DNA from: Candidatus Methylospira mobilis | Lineage (GTDB): Bacteria; Pseudomonadota; Gammaproteobacteria; Methylococcales; Methylococcaceae | NCBI RefSeq assembly: GCF_009498235.1 | Contig: NZ_CP044205.1 | Location: 3,659,389-3,723,388, forward strand | Length of the DNA stretch: 64,000 nucleotides | Reading direction: 5' to 3' | Part shown: piece after piece, positions 13,227 to 22,142 of the stretch | Layout: every line of letters begins with the position of its first letter | Position numbering within the stretch: the stretch's first letter is position 1 | Program-made: the position numbers and the translations under genes | Notes under the pieces: model-generated | Databases searched by the model: none | What the model was told of the DNA's origin: nothing | The model's input: the letters and a program-made list of their open reading frames with translations, nothing else

Positions 13227-14060
13227 AGGTTCTGTTGACGTATCACCGCAACCAAATGAGAGCTGAGACGAAGTGAAGGAAGGCCATGTAGTTGCGAGCT
13301 GTTTTTTCAAAACGCGAAAATATTCGTCGGTAATGTTTGATTTTGTTGAAGAAGCATTCAATCAGATGGCGTTCCTTGTAAATAAACCAATCGCACTCGC
13401 GTACCTTGTTTCGATTGCAGCGCGGAGGAATGACGGCTTTCATATCTCTCGCTACGATGGCCTGGACGAGCGCATCGCTGTCATAGCCTTTGTCACCGAC
13501 AAACGCACGCGCACCCGCCGGCGTCAGCGCCGGCAAGGTTTCAGCCTGTCCAATGTCGCTGGCCTGCCCTCCGGTCAGTAAGAATTCGAGGGGATTCCCC
13601 AAGGCATCGGTGATGGCGTGAATCCTGGTAGTAAAGCCGCCCTTCGATCGTCCCAAGGCTTCATCCTCGGCATTGCTGCCCGCCGCGCCACCAGCGCAGG
13701 GATGAGCCCGGTTGATGGTGGAATCGATAAACACGCTTTGCAAATCAGGATGATGGATGCATCCGGCGAACAGCGACTGCCAAACCCCATGCTTGCTCCA
13801 GCGGGAAAAACGCTTGAACACGGAGTTCCACTTGCCATGCGCTTCCGGCAGCAAACGCCATTGCGATCCCGATCGAAGAATTTGCAGAACGGCAACCAGA
13901 AAGGCCCGGCACTGTTCCTCGGACGTCGATCGGACATGCCGATGTTTCACCAGTATGGGATAGATAACGTTCCAGTCTTCGGCGCTAATTTCGAGTCGGT
14001 CAGCCATTTTCGAAATGGTTCCAGCTTCACTGGTGGCGCGTGCTAATGTCAACAGAACCT
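13227..14060 (-). mobile_element. IS5-family insertion sequence with 13-bp terminal inverted repeats
   Basis: AGGTTCTGTTGAC at 13227-13239 is the exact inverted repeat of GTCAACAGAACCT at 14048-14060, enclosing a single transposase gene. TA is found next to GGTTCTG at both ends, consistent with the TA/TNA target preference of this group. The element is 834 bp, appears complete, and splits the RAYT stub. Confidence 0.9.
13243..14007 (-). CDS. IS5-family DDE transposase
   Basis: A 254-residue single-frame transposase starting MADRLEISAEDW; the frame could extend 15 residues upstream into the terminal repeat, which is unlikely. The DDE triad is visible as D in VFIDSTINRAH, D in FVGDKGYDSD, and E in LIECFFNKIKHYRRI, the family's Y-(2)-R-(3)-E-(6)-K-like block. 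The N-terminal half is the usual helical DUF4096-like domain (QCRAFLVAVLQILRSGSQWR). It fills nearly the whole element and appears intact, so the insertion is probably recent. Confidence 0.92.
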   Translation of the reverse strand: MADRLEISAEDWNVIYPILVKHRHVRSTSEEQCRAFLVAVLQILRSGSQWRLLPEAHGKWNSVFKRFSRWSKHGVWQSLFAGCIHHPDLQSVFIDSTINRAHPCAGGAAGSNAEDEALGRSKGGFTTRIHAITDALGNPLEFLLTGGQASDIGQAETLPALTPAGARAFVGDKGYDSDALVQAIVARDMKAVIPPRCNRNKVRECDWFIYKERHLIECFFNKIKHYRRIFSRFEKTARNYMAFLHFVSALIWLR

Positions 14061-17571: not shown

Positions 17572-18423
17572 TTAAGCCTCCAGCAAAGCCAGACGCAGCT
17601 TCTTCATCGCATTATTTTCCAACTGACGTATACGCTCGGCCGAAACGCTGTAACGATCGGCAAGGTCGTGCAAGGTCAGCTTTTTCTCGTTCAACCAGCG
17701 GCAAGCCACGATGTCGCGGCTGCGCTCGTCCAGCGTATCCATCGCATCCAGCAGGCGCGCCTGAGCGTGTTCGCCGGCCTGATCGTCAGCCAGAAATTCT
17801 GCCGGATCGGCATTGCTCTGCTGTAGATAATAAGCAGGCGCGCTGCTCTCGTGCTCGTCATCATCGTCGTGCGCATCGAACGATGTGTCCTGACCGCTCA
17901 ACCGGCCTTCCATTTCGTATACCGCCGATACATCGACGCCCAGCTCTTCCGCAACCCGGCTGGCTTCGTCATGGGTAAACCAGCCAAGCCGGTTCTTGAA
18001 TTTGCGCAAATTGAAGAACAGCTTGCGTTGCGCCTTGGTGGTCGCCACTTTGACGATACGCCAGTTCTGGATAATGTATTCGTGTATTTCGGCCCTGATC
18101 CAATGCACGCCGAACGACACCAGCCGCACCCCCACTTCCGGGTCGTAATGCTTCACGGCCTTCATCAAGCCGATGTTGCCTTCCTGAATCAGATCCTGCA
18201 ACGGCAATCCGTAGCCCATGTAACCGCGCGCGATATGAACCACAAAACGCAGGTTGGACAAGACGAGCTGACGCGCCGCATCAAGATCGTTTTCATCGCG
18301 AAAACGGCGCGCCAGCGCCCGCTCCTCCTCGGCTTCCAAGCGTGGAACCTTGTTAACGGCGGTGACGTAATCGTCTATCGAACCGACGGGAAAATTACCA
18401 GGCAGCGTTAATGCATAGGCCAT
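17572..18423 (-). CDS. rpoH: RNA polymerase heat-shock sigma factor RpoH (sigma-32)
   Basis: A 283-residue sigma-70 family factor. Region 1.2/2 reads [18 protein letters not shown] and [16 protein letters not shown]; region 2.4 is [16 protein letters not shown]. The RpoH-box region appears as [20 protein letters not shown], and region 4 as [23 protein letters not shown] four codons upstream is in frame, but the ATG at 18423 has GAGG well placed. It follows ftsX, as in most gammaproteobacteria. A CIRCE operator lies between ftsX and this gene, indicating HrcA control added to sigma-32 autocontrol. Confidence 0.97.
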
Positions 18424-18454
18424 AAAATACCTCAATAGTCACAAGCTGGATTTA

Positions 18455-18484
18455 ATTCTAGCACTCTTATGTTAAGAGTGCTAA
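18455..18484 (-). promoter_or_regulatory. Predicted rpoH promoter overlapping the CIRCE box
   Basis: On the minus strand TTAGCA (18484-18479) and TAGAAT (18460-18455) are 18 bases apart, a fair sigma-70 type promoter. Nearly the whole of it lies inside the CIRCE palindrome, so a bound repressor would exclude RNA polymerase. The promoter call itself is inference. Confidence 0.5.
18458..18484. promoter_or_regulatory. CIRCE operator (HrcA binding site) upstream of rpoH
   Basis: CTAGCACTC, nine bases, GAGTGCTAA: this matches the CIRCE consensus TTAGCACTC-N9-GAGTGCTAA with one change in the left arm and the exact nine-base spacing. It lies between the ftsX stop and the rpoH start. HrcA is the heat-sensitive repressor that binds CIRCE, usually before groESL or dnaK; its gene is not in this window. 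Confidence 0.88.
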
Positions 18485-18489
18485 CCTCT

Positions 18490-19506
18490 TTATGAAGTTC
18501 CCAATGCGCGCAAACGGCGTAAATGACTTTCCACCACGATCCACGCGCCCAGTATGCCGATCAGCGCCGACAGCGACAGCAACAGCATGGCCTCGGAAAA
18601 ACTGACGAACTCGAGCGTCAGCTCATGCCCGAACAAAGTCGCCAACTGATGTACCGGAACCTGTATGATTACCGCCAGTATGCCGACCAGCACCAGCGCC
18701 GTCAAACCGCCAAGCAGGCCAAACCACAGTCCGGTATATAGAAACGGGCGTCTGACGAAAGCGTTGCTGGCGCCCATCAGCTTGGTTACCAGTATCTCAT
18801 GGTCGCGGTGATGCAACTCCAGACGAACGGTGTTTCCAACCACGAACAGCACGGACAGGGACAGCAACACCCCCAGCGTAATCAAGGTACGCTGCATGAT
18901 GCCCAGCAAGGTTTGCAATTTAAGCAGCCATTCCATGTCGGCCTGTACGAAATCGACTTCGGGCAGCGCACTGAGTTCGGCAATCAACTTTTGCACCTCG
19001 GCGCGGGACGATAACGCATCGCGCGGCTGTATGGTAATAACCACCGGCAGCGGATTGAAATCGAGCGACTTCAATGCCTCGCCCAAGCCGCTGTAATGTT
19101 CGAACTCGAGCAGCCCGGCCTCGCGGGTAATCAGGCGCGCCTCCAGGATTTGCGGCATTTGCGCCAGTTTTCCGGTCAGCTTCTGTCCGTTTTCATTGCT
19201 TATATCCGGTTTAAGGAAGACGGACATGCGACTGGTCGCTTCCAGCCCGCCTATCGCCTGCTGTGCGTTTTTCAACACCAGAGAGAAACTGAGCGGAAAC
19301 GACAGCACGATGGCGATCACACCTATGGTCATCAGACTGGCGGGAGAGCGGTACAGCCGTCCCAGGCTGGCGATCAGGTTATGGGCGTGCTGGAAAGCGT
19401 AGCTGTCCAGCCGGGCAAGCAGATTGGCGCTGTTAAAGCGTTCGGCAACGCCCAAAGGTTGTCTGCCGCGGGTTCTGCCGCTCTTACGCCGCTGAGCGCC
19501 GTGCAT
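18490..19506 (-). CDS. ftsX: Cell-division protein FtsX
   Basis: A 338-residue membrane protein with the FtsX layout: a cytosolic N-terminus, one transmembrane segment (about 58-80), a periplasmic domain, then three more transmembrane helices (LITLGVLLSLSVLFVVGNTV and two near the end). With FtsE it forms the ABC-like complex that controls septal amidases through EnvC-type partners. The start overlaps the ftsE stop by one base (TGATG), so they are coupled. The N-terminus is longer and more basic than in Escherichia coli, so the true start could be internal. The gene is followed by the CIRCE-controlled rpoH. Confidence 0.95.
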   Translation of the reverse strand: MHGAQRRKSGRTRGRQPLGVAERFNSANLLARLDSYAFQHAHNLIASLGRLYRSPASLMTIGVIAIVLSFPLSFSLVLKNAQQAIGGLEATSRMSVFLKPDISNENGQKLTGKLAQMPQILEARLITREAGLLEFEHYSGLGEALKSLDFNPLPVVITIQPRDALSSRAEVQKLIAELSALPEVDFVQADMEWLLKLQTLLGIMQRTLITLGVLLSLSVLFVVGNTVRLELHHRDHEILVTKLMGASNAFVRRPFLYTGLWFGLLGGLTALVLVGILAVIIQVPVHQLATLFGHELTLEFVSFSEAMLLLSLSALIGILGAWIVVESHLRRLRALGTS

Positions 19507-20180: not shown

Positions 20181-22142
20181 TCAAGCGGAGCATGCCGCCT
20201 GGCGATCGAACAAGGCATCGATAAAGCTGCGCGCATCGAAGTCCTGCAAGTCTTCTATGCCTTCCCCAACCCCGATAAAGCGTATCGGAATGCCGAACTG
20301 CCGCGCCAGCGCAAACACCACGCCGCCTTTGGCGGTGCCGTCCAGCTTGGTTATCACCAGCCCGGTCAAGCCCACGGCCTCGTTGAACAAGCGCGCCTGC
20401 GAGATGGCGTTCTGCCCGGTTCCGGCATCCAGAACCAGCAACACCTCGTGCGGCGCTTCCGGATCGAGCCGCGCCATGATGCGCTTGATCTTGCTCAGTT
20501 CCTCCATCAAGTTGGATTTGGTATGCAGGCGCCCCGCCGTATCCGCAATCAGCACGTCCGCGCCGCGCGCCTGCGCCGCCTGCACGCCGTCGAAAATTAC
20601 CGAAGCGGAATCGGCGCCGGAACCCTGGGATATGACCGGTATCTGATTGCGCTCGCCCCAGCTCTGCAACTGCTCGACCGCGGCGGCGCGAAAGGTATCG
20701 CCAGCCGCCAGCATCACCTGTAAACCACGCGTTTTGAGATGGTTGGCCAGCTTGCCTATGGTGGTCGTCTTGCCGACGCCGTTGACGCCGACCACCAGGA
20801 TTACGAAAGGCTTGCCGGTTTTCGCGATTTCCAGCGGGATGCTGCATGGCGAAAGCATCCGGTAAAGCTGTTCTCGCAAACGGGTGGCAAGCGCCTCGGC
20901 ATCGCCCAATTGACTGCGCTCCAGGCTTTGCGTCAACTCGGCGACCACTTCGTTGGTAACGGTCACCCCCATGTCCGACATCAGCAACTGCGCTTCGATA
21001 TCGTCAAGCAGGTCGCGGTCTATCTTTTTTTGCCCTAACGCACCCAGGAAACCGCTCAGACCGTTGCGCGTCTTGCCCAGACCGCCGCGCAAACGCGCAA
21101 AAAGATTGTCGCCGGTTACCGGCGCGGGAATCGGAGTTATTTCTTCCGGCAACGCCGGCTGCGGAATTACAGCCTCGGGCGCTCGCAGACGCAGATAAAA
21201 AACGATATGCAGTACATTCAGCCACAGCAGCAAAGCGACTGCGCTATGCGCCACCACTATCGCTACCGGCAGACGCAGCACCACGCCCGCAATGCCGAGA
21301 CAGACCTGCAACAGCAGCAAAAAGTTAAGCAGCACGCCCGCTTTGCTCAAACGCCCTACCGCCTGGTTGGAGCTGATCGCCAGCGCCAGCAGACTGAGCA
21401 GCACAAATACCAGCACGGCGCCGATACGATGCGCCCAATGTATCGCCGCTCGCGCAACTTGCGGAAGCACGCCGCCCTGCGCGCCGGGATCGGGCAATGA
21501 AAAGGCCGCTGCAAAATCCAAAGGCGGAGTGTATGACCCCATACAGGTTGGGAAATCCGGACACGCCAGACCGGCATGCCGAATAGACATCCATCCGCCC
21601 AGCGCAATTTCAACCAGTAGCGCCAACAAACCGGCCCGCGCCAGCCAATGCAATGCCGAGACACGGGTGGGCCCGCTTTCCAGCGTAGCCGGACGCTGCA
21701 ACGAATGCAGCCCATACAGCACCGAGAGCGCCAGCAAGCCCAGCAAACCGTGCAGGCTCAGCACCAACGGCGCGGACAACCAGCGAGCCGCCCAAAACCC
21801 CAGGGAAAACTGCAAACCGACCAGCAGCAAGGCGATCAACGAAAGCACAAGCGCCTCGCTCCGCCGCCGCGCCCATGCGGAAGCGAGTACCAGCAACGAT
21901 ACGGAAACGCCCAGCGCAGCCGCCAGCGAACGCAGCGCAACGGATTTCCAGCGCGCATGTTCCTCGGCGGCTGCGCTGCTTTCCAACCCATGCGCGGCCG
22001 GCAAGGAATCGCTAATGCTACTCCCGTAACACCCCGGCCATTCGGGACACCCCAGTCCGGCATCCGACGCCCGCATGTACGCACTCAGCAGCAACACGCC
22101 CAGCACCAGCAAAACAGAAAACAGGCTTAATTTTTTGTACAT
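20181..22142 (-). CDS. ftsY: Fusion of CtaA/Cox15 haem A synthase with the SRP receptor FtsY
   Basis: One uninterrupted 653-residue frame. Residues 1-320 are a CtaA/Cox15 protein: eight transmembrane helices, two AGL-x-CP motifs with Cys pairs (C32/C38 and C194/C200) and the haem-ligand His positions H131, H165, H235, H238 and H299 (IHWAHR, VVAHS). After a Pro-rich linker (321-345), residues 346-653 are the FtsY N and G domains: NLFARLRGGLGKTR, P-loop GVNGVGKTTT (452-461), DTFRAAA, DTAGRL and TKLDGTAKGG. FtsY's usual acidic A domain is absent and replaced by the membrane protein. CtaA's even helix count puts its C-terminus in the cytosol, as FtsY requires. No credible separate start codon for FtsY is seen. 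Upstream genes are Sco-like and SURF1; downstream are ftsE and ftsX. Confidence 0.93.
   Translation of the reverse strand: MYKKLSLFSVLLVLGVLLLSAYMRASDAGLGCPEWPGCYGSSISDSLPAAHGLESSAAAEEHARWKSVALRSLAAALGVSVSLLVLASAWARRRSEALVLSLIALLLVGLQFSLGFWAARWLSAPLVLSLHGLLGLLALSVLYGLHSLQRPATLESGPTRVSALHWLARAGLLALLVEIALGGWMSIRHAGLACPDFPTCMGSYTPPLDFAAAFSLPDPGAQGGVLPQVARAAIHWAHRIGAVLVFVLLSLLALAISSNQAVGRLSKAGVLLNFLLLLQVCLGIAGVVLRLPVAIVVAHSAVALLLWLNVLHIVFYLRLRAPEAVIPQPALPEEITPIPAPVTGDNLFARLRGGLGKTRNGLSGFLGALGQKKIDRDLLDDIEAQLLMSDMGVTVTNEVVAELTQSLERSQLGDAEALATRLREQLYRMLSPCSIPLEIAKTGKPFVILVVGVNGVGKTTTIGKLANHLKTRGLQVMLAAGDTFRAAAVEQLQSWGERNQIPVISQGSGADSASVIFDGVQAAQARGADVLIADTAGRLHTKSNLMEELSKIKRIMARLDPEAPHEVLLVLDAGTGQNAISQARLFNEAVGLTGLVITKLDGTAKGGVVFALARQFGIPIRFIGVGEGIEDLQDFDARSFIDALFDRQAACSA

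Follow-up and report, generated by a model that had tools for sequence, protein, structure and literature searches.

A predicted HrcA operator interlocked with two putative rpoH promoters in Candidatus Methylospira mobilis and across much of its class

The ftsX-rpoH gap and its surroundings

The stretch analysed here—the window, 64,000 nucleotides of the Candidatus Methylospira mobilis genome—carries ftsE, ftsX and rpoH close together on the minus strand. The upstream neighbour of rpoH, ftsX (18490..19506; TIGR00439, 305.5 bits against a cut-off of 255), is separated by a gap of only 66 bases (18424-18489) from rpoH itself (17572..18423, start codon ATG at 18421-18423), which encodes sigma-32 (TIGR02392, 405 bits against a cut-off of 323.1). 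Within this gap lies a palindrome at 18458-18484 that reads CTAGCACTC-TTATGTTAA-GAGTGCTAA on the plus strand and TTAGCACTC-TTAACATAA-GAGTGCTAG in the sense of rpoH. It agrees in 17 of its 18 arm bases with the CIRCE consensus, TTAGCACTC-N9-GAGTGCTAA, the predicted binding site of HrcA. A CIRCE operator between ftsX and rpoH had been proposed from the sequence alone; with one mismatch in 18 and with both flanking genes passing their family profiles, that proposal is borne out. The operator is the sole match with up to three mismatches in the whole window, and shuffled sequence gives a mean of 0.01, which rules out a chance palindrome. Throughout the 4.70-Mb genome there are two sites with no or one mismatch, the one before rpoH and a perfect one before groES, and one further place matches with three mismatches. 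The sequence-only reading required an hrcA gene, and the genome contains one (PF01628, 211.7 bits; TIGR00331, 322.5 bits against a cut-off of 197.2), as well as its own RpoE (TIGR02939, 296.5 bits against a cut-off of 236.15).

Other features of the neighbourhood are recorded for completeness. The end of rpoH adjoins a toxin-like PIN-domain protein (PF01850; 17052-17438, plus strand), and an IS4/5-type transposase (PF13340, PF01609) lies at 13243-14052 on the minus strand. A single frame of 653 aa (20181-22142, minus strand) encodes a fusion of a COX15/CtaA haem A synthase domain (PF02628, residues 5-310) with FtsY, the latter represented by SRP54_N and SRP54 GTPase domains (residues 362-645). 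The same fusion occurs in a second genome of the source's family (G119, 673 aa). Another genome (G105) has a shorter frame of 372 aa with the FtsY motif and without the length of the fusion, and a search for the FtsY motif in four other genomes found no frame.

Distribution of the operator at rpoH

We analysed the operator in 184 genomes drawn evenly from the class of the source organism, so as to avoid near relatives alone. The 350 bases before rpoH were examined in 120 of these, which are the single rpoH matches standing first in the list of 184 (one stretch is shorter, at a contig end); the other 64, including the source genome, stand outside the count, and hrcA may be missing there more often. 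CIRCE with up to three mismatches is present upstream of rpoH in 94 of the 120, that is, in 91 of the 98 genomes with hrcA versus three of the 22 without, the latter defined as having no match in the hrcA profile search of the 184 genomes. These figures count as hrcA-positive one genome (G081) whose hrcA is a fragment at the end of a contig; beforehand they were 90/97 versus 4/23. The three hrcA-negative genomes with a site (G111, G065 and G181) keep a CIRCE-like sequence with one to three changes in its arms. Seven of the 98 hrcA-positive genomes are without the operator at the rpoH copy examined (G024, G062, G097, G131, G134, G159 and G180), and a second rpoH in G159 has a site with three mismatches. 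Among named genomes, the best 80 of 123 rpoH loci include 71 with CIRCE at up to three mismatches upstream; the closest rpoH in this set is from Methylococcaceae, at 75% identity. A scan of relatives, which had been suggested as a check, thus shows the site to be widespread, and the possibility that it is peculiar to the source genome is ruled out by both surveys. In five cases (L018, G008 at L189, L045, G048 at L172 and G124 at L186) rpoH has a second CIRCE-like site with one to four mismatches, 30-42 bases away from the first, an arrangement that could allow paired HrcA binding.

The survey also bears on whether the palindrome is an operator at all. A scan classes it as terminator-like on the plus strand, so that it might be read as an intrinsic terminator or as a hairpin in the RNA. 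Set against this classification are its base-by-base match to the HrcA consensus, its tie to hrcA, a T-rich tail that lies on the strand opposite rpoH, and the pattern of variation across the 94 genomes, in which the arms are nearly invariant and most loop positions vary. We therefore reject the terminator reading, which is hardly credible, and treat the palindrome as a predicted HrcA operator.

HrcA control of a sigma factor gene had been presented as a departure from the norm, and in this respect the sequence-only reading does not stand: an operator in this place is the prevailing arrangement in the class genomes examined, and a CIRCE upstream of rpoH was predicted in Geobacter sulfurreducens in 2004 (Rodionov and others, PMC545781). 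The core claim that HrcA acts on rpoH is thus not new in kind. The two cases are alike in operator, target gene and reliance on sequence prediction, the G. sulfurreducens site having perfect arms and lying 51 bases before the start. They differ in that the available parts of that paper mention no RpoE promoter, in that G. sulfurreducens belongs to a different phylum-level group, and in that one genome is concerned there as opposed to most of the class sample here. In the available portions of seven publications (PMC545781, PMC10696704, PMC8103513, PMC3224663, PMC6032397, PMC3135505 and PMC3989490), CIRCE at rpoH appears in PMC545781 alone. That paper cites a study of these regulons in beta- and gamma-proteobacteria (Permina and Gelfand 2003), which may already list rpoH. 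Control of rpoH by HrcA, the central element of the earlier proposal, is well supported by comparison, hrcA being present in the source and CIRCE tracking hrcA across the 120 genomes; the promoter picture is what needs enlarging, since the elements described below would bring in further inputs.

Promoter elements within and around the operator

A promoter scan of 18400-18560 gives a single sigma-70-like match, TTAGCA-N18-TAGAAT with TG before the -10. Its -35 (TTAGCA, 18479..18484, minus strand) is within the left arm of CIRCE, and its extended -10 (TGCTAGAAT, 18455..18463, minus strand) consists of the right arm plus AAT. This is the TTAGCA/TAGAAT promoter already noticed as overlapping the operator. 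That picture was incomplete because it missed a conserved sigma-E-type promoter, GGAACTT-N17-TCTTA on the minus strand, with a -35 (GGAACTT, 18495..18501) that overlaps the last codons of ftsX and a -10 (TCTTA, 18473..18477) formed by the two final bases of the left arm together with the loop.

When the 94 rpoH sites are aligned on CIRCE, GAAC[TC] (of GGAACTT) begins 14-16 bases before the operator in 69, the place allowed for it having been chosen after viewing the 80 named loci and the 94-site alignment. Within the loop, the first base is T in 65 of the 94 and the third is A in 77; together with the -35, this loop A gives GGAACTT-N16-TCNNA, with a spacer of 16 in 56 of the 69 sites, 17 in 10 and 15 in three. 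On the other side of the operator, the third base past the right arm is T in 84 of the 94, completing TGCTAAnnT, an extended sigma-70 -10. We compared these features with 40 control CIRCE sites at groES or hrcA from the same genome sample, picked among the matches listed (36 by a text filter, comprising 26 groES and 10 hrcA, and the remaining four assigned to hrcA by eye). The -35 occurs in none of the 40, the loop A in five and the closing T in seven; for the 36 filter-sorted controls, again among the matches listed, Fisher p values against the rpoH sites range from 7e-8 to 6e-16. In the 71 sites from the best 80 of 123 named loci, which probably share genomes with the 94 (L032 and G085 look alike), 58 carry the -35, 47 the loop A and all 71 the closing T. 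Coupling between the sigma-E -35 and the loop A is significant in the 94-site set (p 3e-5) and absent in the 71-site set (p 0.34), which is weaker than hoped.

The combined motif GAACT-N9-11-CIRCE occurs once each in 50 of the 184 class genomes, 49 times at rpoH, and the reversed pattern, used as a control, in none of the 184. Of these composites, 39 are in the rpoH regions examined, five fit rpoH coordinates (G053, G071, G128, G141 and G170), four are at rpoH loci examined separately (G080, G094, G101 and G174), one is that of the window itself, and one is at clpB (G062). A phylum-wide draw yielded the composite in five of 299 genomes, all in the class, and in none of the 185 outside it by hand count. 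As for the clpB case (L253, G062:C8:47780-49000), the sigma-E and CIRCE composite stands before a gene that matches NF008118 over the N-terminal 332 positions (591.7 bits), and the listed rpoH of this genome is without CIRCE; the unit may have been relocated, or it may have originated a second time.

As an RpoE element, the -35 would be expected to depend on the presence of rpoE. Taking as rpoE-negative the genomes below the TIGR02939 cut-off (236.15 bits), the -35 is present at the rpoH CIRCE in 69 of 88 genomes above the cut-off versus none of six below (p 2e-4), one of the genomes with lower scores being near the threshold (G112, at 213.4 bits) and three more having weak matches (G008, G030 and G054). 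All 69 genomes with the -35 thus pass the cut-off, and the six below it, from six different families, all keep the sigma-70 T. The 19 genomes that have CIRCE at rpoH and rpoE and no -35 at the expected place indicate that this element is common, not obligatory. These data also weigh on a simpler reading, in which CIRCE covers the sigma-70 promoter only and GGAACTT is a chance occurrence or a relic in the source genome. Such a reading would suit the fact that it was the sigma-70 layout that the scan found, the wider occurrence of its closing T than of the sigma-E -35 (84 versus 69 of 94), and the spacer of 17 in the window, less common than 16 (10 versus 56 sites). It is nevertheless unlikely, given that the -35 keeps a fixed distance, is absent from the 40 other CIRCE sites among the matches listed and is confined to genomes with rpoE, which the source genome has. 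We therefore retain the reading with two promoters, one of sigma-E type and one of sigma-70 type.

The conservation of these elements is equally relevant to the effect that the operator might have. With ftsE, ftsX and rpoH so close together on one strand, rpoH could be transcribed mostly with ftsEX from promoters further up, in which case HrcA would bind with little effect on the level of sigma-32 or would act as a roadblock to read-through. The conservation of operator-tied promoter elements across many families argues against a pure roadblock, which would not need them, and makes this scenario rather improbable. Read-through from ftsEX could still dilute the control of rpoH, a point against the model of HrcA gating two rpoH promoters set out below.

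A predicted junction of two stress responses

HrcA of the classical Bacillus subtilis type controls the groESL and dnaK operons through CIRCE. The same operator stands before groES in the source genome, in which a TTGACA-N16-TATTAT promoter, by reading, runs into the CIRCE of groES (a gene identified by eye). In 24 of the 26 groES control sites among the matches listed, CIRCE is immediately preceded by a TTGA...TATnA promoter, whereas the promoter elements of rpoH are placed within the operator and on either side of it. Further along the cascade, grpE-dnaK directly follows hrcA in the source genome (all three confirmed by profile tests), and a sigma-32-like promoter, TTGAA-N15-CCCCATTT, lies upstream of grpE, overlapping the end of hrcA. 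The sigma-32 promoter pattern has 11 matches in the source genome versus four for the reversed control, so only the match at grpE is used here, for its place. With groES carrying its own CIRCE and grpE-dnaK a sigma-32-like promoter, HrcA would have a direct effect on groESL and would reach dnaK by way of rpoH. Just before the source hrcA, a degenerate CIRCE with four mismatches follows TTGACA-N17-TAGTTT (L001:2515-2541, G000:C1); this is only suggestive of an autoregulatory site.

From the sequences, their conservation and their co-occurrence with hrcA and rpoE, all directly observed, we infer HrcA binding, transcription start sites and a direction of control. We consider it likely that an HrcA operator is superimposed on two rpoH promoters, that HrcA, tuned by GroEL, gates both, and that RpoH drives grpE-dnaK. 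The RpoE promoter would extend from GGAACTT through the spacer into TCTTA inside the operator, and the left arm would supply the -35 of the sigma-70 promoter, whose extended -10 would come from the right arm. With GroEL free, HrcA would be active and would cover the RpoE -10 and both sigma-70 elements, holding rpoH low. Unfolded protein occupying GroEL would deprive HrcA of DNA binding, opening rpoH to sigma-70 and, if the envelope is also stressed, to sigma-E; RpoH would then drive grpE-dnaK from its sigma-32-type promoter, and the release of HrcA would open groESL directly. The GroEL step would follow by analogy with the titration model that links GroEL load to HrcA of the B. subtilis type (PMC6032397). 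Two stress signals would thus appear to meet on about 45 bases, and envelope stress, GroEL load and a vegetative promoter would converge in one node, going beyond a cascade from HrcA to sigma-32.

Control of rpoH by RpoE is in itself classical. In Escherichia coli, RpoE drives rpoH P3 and binds GGAACTT (PMC8103513). That promoter, TGAACTT-N16-TCTGA, has the same -35, spacer and type of -10 as the sigma-E layout here; it differs in having no CIRCE, and the control genomes where the HrcA family was found do not include E. coli. A CIRCE joined to an RpoE promoter was not found in the open-licence PubMed Central literature, in which Greek spelling of sigma may escape a search, nor in the available parts of the seven publications listed above. 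In what we describe, operator and target are therefore both of known kinds; the novelty lies in the conserved, interlocked layout of operator and promoters, which seems undescribed.

Genomes without hrcA offer a view of what may follow its loss. Two hrcA-negative genomes of one family (G067 and G182) keep TGAACTT-N16-TC, all of the left arm (TTGGCACTC) and also TGCTAAAAT, with the right arm out of register so that the 9-9-9 symmetry is broken, as expected if the promoters are used and the operator alone lost its reader. Four others (G145, G147, G002 and G143) keep the sigma-E-type promoter and have no CIRCE, like E. coli. Overall, in 12 of the 22 hrcA-negative genomes a sigma-E-like promoter lies no more than 350 bases from rpoH, against a shuffled rate of 0.03; two of the 12 (G173 and G052, 333 bases up) look like chance. 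We lean slightly towards a broader reading, in which in much of the class the RpoE -10 is physically part of the HrcA operator, forming one interlocked unit through which chaperone load, sensed by GroEL and HrcA, vetoes the envelope-stress route to sigma-32. The free-standing rpoH P3 of E. coli would then be a remnant left after loss of hrcA and decay of the operator, with families like that of G067 and G182 midway.

Heat-shock control is usually taught, on the model of E. coli, as being either of the repressor type (HrcA) or of the sigma type (RpoH). The common state of the class genomes examined looks like both types on one stretch of DNA, together with an envelope-stress input. If this is true, the E. 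coli arrangement is derived, the response of rpoH to RpoE should be released when hrcA is deleted, and genomes would show in which order the operator decays once hrcA is lost.
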